A stretch of 64,000 nt of DNA from an uncultured Chitinophaga sp. (GTDB lineage Bacteria; Bacteroidota; Bacteroidia; Cytophagales; Cyclobacteriaceae): assembly GCA_902168205.1 (NCBI GenBank), contig CABHOK010000003.1:434001-498000 (forward strand). Reading direction: 5' to 3'. The translations under genes and the position numbers were made by a program. Shown here piece after piece: positions 36,845 through 38,661 of this stretch. Under the pieces are notes generated by a model that did no database searches, was not told the origin of the DNA, and saw nothing but the letters and a program-made list of their open reading frames with translations. Each line of letters opens with the position of its first letter. Positions within the stretch are counted from its first letter, which is position 1.

Positions 36845-37966
36845 ATGGAAAACTTTGTTGTATCGGCACGTAAATATCGCCCTACGGGGTTTGACGAAGT
36901 GGTTGGACAAGAACACATTACCACTACGCTCAAAAATGCTATCGATAACAATAAGCTTGCTCAGGCTCTCTTATTCTGCGGACCTCGCGGTGTGGGTAAA
37001 ACTACCTGCGCACGTATCGTGGCACGCCTGATCAATGGTTTTGAAGAAAGAACAGAAAATAATTCACTCAATATTTTCGAGCTCGATGCTGCTTCCAACA
37101 ACTCTGTGGAAGACATTCGTAACCTGATCGACCAGGTTCGCTACCCGCCTCAGTTCGGAAAATTCAAAGTGTATATTATAGACGAGGTGCACATGCTCTC
37201 GAACGCGGCCTTCAACGCATTTCTGAAGACGCTCGAAGAACCACCTTCGTACGCAATTTTTATTCTGGCGACAACTGAAAAACACAAGGTAATTCCTACC
37301 ATTCTTTCGCGTTGCCAGATCTTTGATTTCAACCGGATACAGATCAGTGATATAGCCAATCACCTTAAAAAGATTGCGCAGCACGAAGGTATACCAACGG
37401 AAGACGAAGCACTTCACCTGATCAGTCAGAAAGCAGACGGTGCATTACGCGATGCACTCTCCATTTTTGACTTGATGGTAACATACTCCTCCGGTAAGGG
37501 AGTAATGTTCAAGAATGTGTTGAGCAACCTGCACATCCTGGATTATGATTATTATTTCCAGGTGATCGATGCATTGCTGTCGCAGAATCATACACAGCCT
37601 TTGCTGTTACTCGATGAAATTTTACGCAAAGGTTTTGACGGTCATAATTTTATTGTTGGCTTGAGCGAACATCTTCGTAACCTGCTGGTATCACAAGATG
37701 CCCGCACGGTACAATTGATGGAAGTGCCCGACAGCGTTAAAAAGAAATATGTACAGCAAGCACAGGCTTGTCCGCCTTCGTTGTTACTAACGTGGCTCAA
37801 CATTGCCAACCAGTGTGATATCAATTACAAGGGAAGCAAGAATCAACGCCTTTCCGTAGAATTGGCGTTGATGAAGATGGCACATGTGGGTAGTCTATTG
37901 AAGGCCGATCAACTTGCCCTGAACGGACTTGCTGAACAGGCAGGCTTAAAAAAAAAATTAGTGTAG
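36845..37966 (+). CDS. dnaX: DNA polymerase III gamma/tau, zero-frame (gamma-like) product
   Basis: Clamp-loader ATPase. The ATG at 36845 gives MENFVVSARKYRPTGFDEVV, and 373 residues follow before a TAG. Walker A is GPRGVGKTTCAR, the DEAD-box-type Walker B is IIDEVHMLSNAAFNAFLKTL, and sensor 1 LATTEKHKVIPTILSR carries the SRC arginine finger. The four-Cys zinc module that normally follows Walker A is absent (ARLINGFEERTENNSLNIFE). The frame closes at LKKKLV right after a run of ten A (37948-37957), while the tau tail continues in the -1 frame. The short protein would therefore be gamma-like. Confidence 0.9.
   Translation: MENFVVSARKYRPTGFDEVVGQEHITTTLKNAIDNNKLAQALLFCGPRGVGKTTCARIVARLINGFEERTENNSLNIFELDAASNNSVEDIRNLIDQVRYPPQFGKFKVYIIDEVHMLSNAAFNAFLKTLEEPPSYAIFILATTEKHKVIPTILSRCQIFDFNRIQISDIANHLKKIAQHEGIPTEDEALHLISQKADGALRDALSIFDLMVTYSSGKGVMFKNVLSNLHILDYDYYFQVIDALLSQNHTQPLLLLDEILRKGFDGHNFIVGLSEHLRNLLVSQDARTVQLMEVPDSVKKKYVQQAQACPPSLLLTWLNIANQCDINYKGSKNQRLSVELALMKMAHVGSLLKADQLALNGLAEQAGLKKKLV
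37948..37957 (+). promoter_or_regulatory. Candidate programmed frameshift / transcriptional slippage site in dnaX
   Basis: Ten consecutive A inside TTA AAA AAA AAA TTA. The zero frame ends three codons later (TTA GTG TAG), and the -1 frame reads straight into the tau tail. Thermus dnaX makes gamma and tau by RNA-polymerase slippage on a similar A run, and E. coli by -1 ribosomal shift on A AAA AAG. No clear stimulatory hairpin or Shine-Dalgarno-like sequence flanks it here, which favours slippage. Confidence 0.7.
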
Positions 37967-38661
37967 AGTCTGAAGATGAAGTAGAGCAGGTGGAAGAAAC
38001 AACGCCTGTAGGGTCTACGTCATCTCCTGCATCAGCGCCAGCGGCTACAGCTACTCCAACCGTTGTATCAACACCAACGGCTGCTCCGTCAACAACTTCC
38101 TCAACTCTACCGACAAAACCTGTAGCGGAAGCTCCTTCAGAAAATATACAAGAAACTCCTGCGGGCCTCTCGATGAAGCCAAACTTTGCAGAGAAATCAA
38201 AATTCAAGGATGCTCCTAAAACAACGGTTAAGCTAACAGATCTTTTAAAAGTTGAACCGAAAAAAGAGCAGACTGCGACACAGGTAAAAGTTGAACAGGA
38301 CGAACCGTTTACCCCGGAGCAACTGCGTGCTGTGTGGGAAGAATTTGCCGAGTCGCGCAAAAAATTTCAGGCGGAGTATCACTTGCTCACACAACCGTAT
38401 GATCTGAAAGAAAACGTAGTAACGGTGCATCTTCATAATACCGTGCAGGAGATGATGCTAAACGGTTTGCGTATCGAGCTATCTACATTCGTTCGTGATA
38501 AACTGAAAAATAATTCCATCCAGATTTTTGGTGAGATGCGCATTATCGAAGATACGCGGAAAGTAATGTATACTCCACGCGAAAAATTCGAATACCTGAT
38601 GGAGAAAAATCCGGCTCTCAAAGAATTGAAAGACCGCCTCGGCCTCGATACGGATTATTAA
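37957..38661 (+). CDS. dnaX: dnaX tau C-terminal region in the -1 frame (234 residues)
   Basis: This frame opens directly at the A10 run with ISVESEDEVEQVEETTPVG and has no start codon of its own that would make sense. It begins with a Ser/Pro/Thr/Ala-rich linker (about residues 15-70), then a folded tau tail (FTPEQLRAVWEEFAESRKKF, ENVVTVHLHNTVQEMMLN, YLMEKNPALKELKDRLGLD) typical of Bacteroidota DnaX, which binds the polymerase and helicase. Joined by a -1 shift or by one extra A in the transcript, it gives a 605-residue tau from 36845 to 38661, the normal length. A homopolymer sequencing error is the alternative. Confidence 0.85.
   Translation: MSVESEDEVEQVEETTPVGSTSSPASAPAATATPTVVSTPTAAPSTTSSTLPTKPVAEAPSENIQETPAGLSMKPNFAEKSKFKDAPKTTVKLTDLLKVEPKKEQTATQVKVEQDEPFTPEQLRAVWEEFAESRKKFQAEYHLLTQPYDLKENVVTVHLHNTVQEMMLNGLRIELSTFVRDKLKNNSIQIFGEMRIIEDTRKVMYTPREKFEYLMEKNPALKELKDRLGLDTDY

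Follow-up and report, generated by a model that had tools for sequence, protein, structure and literature searches.

Comparison of sequences across the Bacteroidota indicates, with a probability that we put at about 0.8, that the dnaX gene in the window (the whole stretch of 64,000 nucleotides that was analysed) carries a conserved site of programmed transcriptional slippage that yields both the gamma and the tau forms of DnaX. The length of the adenine run at this site is conserved and its reading frame is not. Such conservation supports the earlier note on this DNA, which had proposed programmed slippage from the sequence of the window.

The dnaX locus

In this gene (36845-38661) the reading frame is broken at ten successive adenines (A10) with TT on either side (Table 1). 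Both the split, with its 373-residue zero frame, and the -1 frame that is open to a TAA ending at 38661 were confirmed from the sequence. The zero frame, read from its ATG, finishes with the residues GLKKKLV (codons TTA AAA AAA AAA TTA GTG TAG). Its product contains the ATPase, lid and domain III regions, and matches the profiles NF011531 (PRK14971; E 2.6e-192) and TIGR02397 (E 2.7e-114). The tail was described in the earlier note as a normal tau tail, and indeed its match in the full-length model NF011531 is to the C-terminal end (profile positions 394-613 of 614, E 4.6e-24). By arithmetic, one added A gives 1815 coding bases and the joined product of 605 residues that the note had named. The note also stated that the tail lacks its own start; the tail frame does contain a GTG at 37990, which carries no mark of a real start. 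The dnaX gene is the single match to TIGR02397 above the cut-off in the whole genome. Only eight exact A10 runs, counting both strands together, exist in this 7.3 Mb genome, so the run in dnaX is beyond chance. The run contains the heptamer A AAA AAA and is followed by TT; the E. coli-type heptamer A AAA AAG is absent.

Table 1. Features of the dnaX locus (positions in the window) and of companion A10 sites elsewhere in the source genome and in relatives
Feature	Coordinates	Strand	Remarks
dnaX zero-frame orf, predicted gamma	36845..37966	+	373 aa, with the ATPase and clamp-loader domains (I-III)
Short spacer with one Cys	37004..37078	+	25 aa; 79 of 138 loci are longer here and have four or more Cys (zinc module)
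A10 slippery run	37948..37957	+	zero-frame codons TTA AAA AAA AAA
tau tail in the -1 frame (linker plus C-terminal domain)	37948..38661	+	open from the run to TAA
TAG ending the +1 frame	37959..37961	+	directly past the run
TAG ending the zero frame	37964..37966	+	two sense codons past the run
Predicted hairpin	37963..38018	+	5 nt downstream of A10; not kept in the genus and probably dispensable
parC-like run and two overlapping tails	G000:C7:61518-61529 (source genome, outside the window)		L155-L164, L185-L190
Glycosyltransferase-DUF2062	L148 (G000:C3:885907-885918), L242-L251		A10 split

Conservation in the genus, family and order

The same A10 split of dnaX was found in all seven genomes of the genus that were examined, the source genome included, in assemblies that range from 6 to 280 contigs. 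The earlier note had asked that a homopolymer read error be excluded, and since the split is shared by all seven genomes such an error appears very unlikely. Homopolymers are prone to sequencing error in general, but a sequencing or assembly mistake in a true run of eleven (A11), or a deletion there that recently inactivated the gene, would have to account for the same split in the whole genus and in many other genera, and is extremely improbable; the arrangement is conserved in relatives and is no lone disruption.

The genome search covered 59 genomes, the source among them, from which 58 dnaX loci (L009-L066) were read; no dnaX was found in one (G014). Twenty-nine other genomes of the family possess dnaX, with a short zero frame in 23 and an open one in six (G010, G016, G018, G022, G031 and G035), so that the comparison with close relatives suggested in the earlier note comes out in favor of a conserved split. 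One split member of the family (L035) has a run of only seven adenines (A7). In a sample of the order (291 genomes, 279 with a match), the zero frame is short in 41 of 41 other family genomes among the matches listed. These short zero frames are 368-479 aa from stop to stop and open ones about 550-730 aa, figures that cover the matches listed and that, for genomes whose sequence was not fetched, give the length of the frame and not the run. Relatives that lack the A run and have a continuous frame, which the earlier note would have counted against its proposal, do exist (L046 in the same order, among 11 runless loci of 138), but only further away than the genus.

Run length and reading frame across the Bacteroidota

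For a wider view, 138 dnaX loci were assembled from the 58 genome loci (window included) and 80 named loci, the best among at least 594. The longest A run was scored in a stretch that reaches from 60 nt upstream to 330 nt downstream of the point where the domain III match ends. The longest run is A10 in 107 loci, A11 in seven, A9 in seven, A12 in two, A8 in one and A7 in three, and there is none in 11; in L063 (A12 at +307) and L086 (A10 at +283) the run is so far downstream that it may be another run. Outside the site, 219 kb of the same genes contain no A run longer than nine, a length reached six times. The 11 loci with no run of at least seven adenines are L046, L066, L094, L104, L114, L125, L131, L136, L137, L138 and L143, eight of them named as Bacteroidales or as families of that order; the slippage device is thus dispensable in some lineages. 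In four of the runless loci (L104, L114, L136 and L137) the zero frame is nevertheless short, at 366-388 aa.

The 138 loci comprise 125 distinct sequence contexts, of which the 122 with at least eight adenines were used for frame counts. The tau tail is in the zero frame at 63 of these sites, in the -1 frame at 56 and in the +1 frame at three, two of which have A9 (the -1 arrangement minus one A) and could be errors. The A10 runs begin at each of the three codon positions. Whichever frame leads into the tail, both off frames are shut within ten codons at 113 of the 122 sites, compared with 29-30% at random control points of the same genes. In the two large classes the +1 frame closes early relative to the next stop interval, with medians of 4 versus 17 codons (Wilcoxon p 2.1e-8) and 2 versus 9 codons (p 5.6e-7). 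Among lysine codons upstream of the run 33% are AAG, and 4 of 29 other Lys-Lys-Lys triplets are AAAAAAAAA.

On a tree of 135 DnaX N-terminal parts (FastTree only, with the long-branch loci L063, L064 and L066 omitted), the frame arrangement of the 122 labelled rows changed at least 22 times by parsimony, versus 36-48 times in 50 shuffles of the labels. When in-frame rows are set against all other rows, runless ones included, the supported branches force 15 changes. Two members of one genus illustrate the drift: Aquimarina mytili (L105) has the tail in frame and Aquimarina sp. RZ0 (L122) has it split, both at A10. Named loci of Rufibacter, Hymenobacter, Dyadobacter, Cesiribacteraceae and an uncultured Cytophagales stand on this tree among genomes from the order of the window, which makes Cytophagales the probable order.

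A separate feature of DnaX also varies in this set. The zinc module of domain I, recognized by its four cysteines, is missing from 57 of the 138 loci, the window included; at least four cysteines are present in 79 and two could not be scored by the motif. The module changed at least four times on the tree.

Hairpin and Shine-Dalgarno-like signals

The earlier note had based its preference for slippage on a clear lack of a flanking hairpin and of a Shine-Dalgarno-like motif. In dnaX of the E. coli type a stem-loop stands shortly downstream of the slippery site. Contrary to the first part of the statement in the note, the window itself folds a hairpin that starts 5 nt past the run (-17.4 kcal/mol, z -3.7). 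This structure was rejected as a general stimulator, being present in the window and not kept in the genus: the closest sister (L010) forms only a weak inner stem at the corresponding place (z -0.63), and four other genus members (L011, L013, L014 and L015) fold differently there (z -0.5 to -1.9). When sequences after the run were folded for all 122 sites, 12 had z below -2, compared with 4 to 12 of 122 for controls. The mean z was slightly lower after the run (-0.48 versus -0.29 to 0.05 for controls), and in a separate comparison it was -0.49 after the run versus -0.29 and -0.21 at controls.

Upstream of the run in the window, the longest Shine-Dalgarno-like match is 3 nt, short of a stimulator of the E. 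coli type. Over the set of sites, matches of at least 5 nt occur in 9.8% versus 2.8% of controls and matches of at least 4 nt in 32% versus 14%, an excess of which a linker rich in glutamate and glycine is perhaps the cause. A Shine-Dalgarno stimulator was likewise rejected: the element is enriched, yet it is found in a minority of sites.

Mechanism and alternatives

The fixed length of the run, the drift of its frame, the closure of both wrong frames and the lack of a conserved hairpin all favor slippage by RNA polymerase. The preference of the earlier note for the polymerase over the ribosome is supported accordingly by fixed length, varying phase and frame, and closed off frames rather than by the evidence that it had offered. 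RNA polymerase copying the A10 run would add adenines and probably, less often, drop them. Transcripts with ten adenines would be read in the zero frame to the stop two codons further on, giving gamma of 373 aa; those with eleven would join the zero frame to the tail frame, giving tau of 605 aa; and those of other lengths would enter the +1 frame, meet a stop immediately and give a gamma-like protein. Our inferences are that slippage lies with the polymerase rather than the ribosome, that insertions outnumber losses and that both proteins are made, and they extend to the ratio of the two.

The same two proteins could be made by a faithful polymerase if the ribosome underwent a programmed -1 frameshift on A AAA AAA to produce tau. 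Because this heptamer lies within A10 in every phase, such a frameshift has to be reckoned with, and several observations suit it: the direction of the split class (56 sites in -1 versus three in +1); the rarity of +1 tails (3 of 122), which it predicts as well as insertion-biased slippage does; the window's hairpin 5 nt downstream (z -3.7); the excess of Shine-Dalgarno-like matches upstream over the site set; and the split relative L035 with only A7. However, the hairpin is not conserved in the genus, and the length of the run is independent of codon phase. A pure -1 ribosomal shift needs only seven bases and no closed +1 frame, but ten adenines are kept and the +1 frame too is shut early, which again favors slippage by the polymerase and leaves the ribosomal frameshift an unlikely explanation.

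Two further alternatives were considered. If gamma alone were made from the zero frame, the tail might be a separate small protein translated from an internal start, for which the GTG at 37990 is a candidate; but at 63 of 122 sites the tail simply continues the zero frame, it corresponds to the end of the full-length DnaX model and its frame is open back through the run, all of which make a separate tail protein highly improbable. Alternatively, the length of the run might differ between cells as a form of phase variation in the DNA. The length of homopolymers can vary in replication, but the run is A10 in 107 of 138 loci, and dnaX, which is essential in other bacteria, is no surface gene; a phase-variable dnaX can hardly be credited. 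Phase variation at poly-A/T tracts is discussed in Antonov et al. 2013 (PMC3711429). Transcriptional slippage is the reading that accounts for the split gene best in our estimation, and it can be compared with the dnaX genes already described.

Comparison with known dnaX genes

The dnaX section of Antonov et al. 2013 (PMC3711429) lists 17 dnaX genes composed of two orfs in 12 genera, with ten adenines in nine of them, for which a -1 transition at the DNA level makes recoding necessary for tau and slippage was proposed. The dnaX gene of the window has the same two overlapping orfs, with the tail in the -1 frame and ten adenines at the transition, and belongs to this class; its kind is therefore already known, and the suggestion of the earlier note that dual output evolved here is too narrow for a site that occurs across the Bacteroidota and a class published in 2013. 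The dnaX section of that paper treats the split arrangement, whereas in the relatives studied here in-frame, -1 and +1 runs occur side by side.

In Thermus thermophilus, transcripts with extra adenines arise by slippage at nine adenines of dnaX, according to the passages on this gene in Atkins et al. 2016 (PMC5009743) and in PMC1088944. The site of the window resembles it in having at least nine adenines at the border of gamma and tau, near stops in both off frames and two products, which for the window are predicted. The polarity is different: Thermus has A9 with tau in the zero frame and gamma from slipped transcripts, whereas the window has A10 with gamma in the zero frame, which ends at 373 aa instead of continuing into tau, and tau is proposed to come from slipped transcripts. 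A tau that is in frame as in Thermus is found at 63 of the 122 sites of relatives, and reversed polarity in a few bacteria is mentioned by Atkins et al. 2016 (PMC5009743). The likeness to E. coli dnaX extends to one gene, two DnaX forms and an A-rich site; in E. coli, as outlined in the dnaX parts of PMC5009743 and PMC3711429, tau is in the zero frame and the other form results from a -1 ribosomal frameshift at A AAA AAG, helped by an upstream Shine-Dalgarno-like element and a downstream stem-loop, stimulators that are not conserved in the dnaX of the window and its relatives. A literature search, mostly outside subscription papers, found none that describes an A10 of fixed length whose frame drifts across the Bacteroidota.

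A companion site in parC

Scanning the seven genomes of the genus for exact A10 yielded 64 runs. When these were grouped by blastn of their flanks, a method by which diverged homologues can be missed, two groups were common to all seven genomes (dnaX and parC), one to six and two to a pair, and the rest were single. The second gene common to all, which we take to be parC (topoisomerase IV subunit A) from family features in its sequence, encodes a protein (P0001) for which the search found no Pfam match. Its A10 (A11 in L189) occupies one position in all of the 16 genomes among the matches listed whose DnaX shares at least 84% identity with that of the window; the tails of parC loci outside this group (L165-L171, L173 and L191-L193) have no run of nine or more. 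A search of the literature by title for parC with slippage or clamp motifs found no such site.

After the run, two frames are open in all 16 genes: one encodes a tail that is acidic and has one or two QxxLF motifs, which resemble sliding-clamp-binding motifs, and the other, always +1 of the acidic frame, encodes a lysine-rich basic tail of 55-103 codons with a net charge of +17 to +35. The zero frame of parC leads into the basic tail in five genomes and the acidic tail in 11.

Overlapping tails of this kind appear to be dual-coded, as the divergence of third positions suggests. In 12 of the 16 genomes, taken as six disjoint pairs, third positions of the acidic frame differ in 85 of 414 codons within the overlap, 545 of 1498 upstream (Fisher 4.6e-10) and 58 of 144 after the stop of the basic frame (7.4e-6), although alignment of low-complexity sequence could distort these counts; divergence falls to roughly half within the overlap and only there, as dual coding predicts. 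A comparison of seven pairs includes one, L155-L159, without reduction (0.468 versus 0.487). The openness of the basic frame by itself was not significant when synonymous codons were shuffled in 10 of the 16 genes (P 0.06-1.0), and the third frame is also open for 47-96 codons in eight of the 16, so that T-poor composition explains part of the openness. Dual coding thus has its support from the test of third positions only.

Other A10 sites

Six of the seven genomes of the genus share an A10 that splits a gene for a family 2 glycosyltransferase (PF00535), and the -1 frame past this run encodes DUF2062 (PF09835, E 5.4e-16). The same A10 split is present in G030, an A11 split in G021 and no run in G006; in G052 the A10 is in frame and both off frames are shut (5 and 2 codons). 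Another A10 splits an esterase-like gene of the source genome (L154, G000:C12:149606-149617), for which blastn of the flanks found no partner among the A10 sites of the seven genus genomes; on that account the split is perhaps a private disruption.

Implications

Conservation makes the split dnaX gene credible, and what was a short list in the literature becomes a natural experiment, in which the length of the run is kept and the frame drifts among three arrangements. With such a pattern, sequences by themselves help to distinguish slippage of the polymerase from shifting of the ribosome. We give even odds to the broader proposition that A10 serves this clade as an established slippage device in replication genes beyond dnaX, a device that would set both the ratio of tau to gamma and the share of topoisomerase IV that docks on the clamp versus that which holds DNA with a basic tail. 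The parC site, if confirmed, would be a dual-coded alternative C-terminus, controlled by slippage, of an essential topoisomerase.
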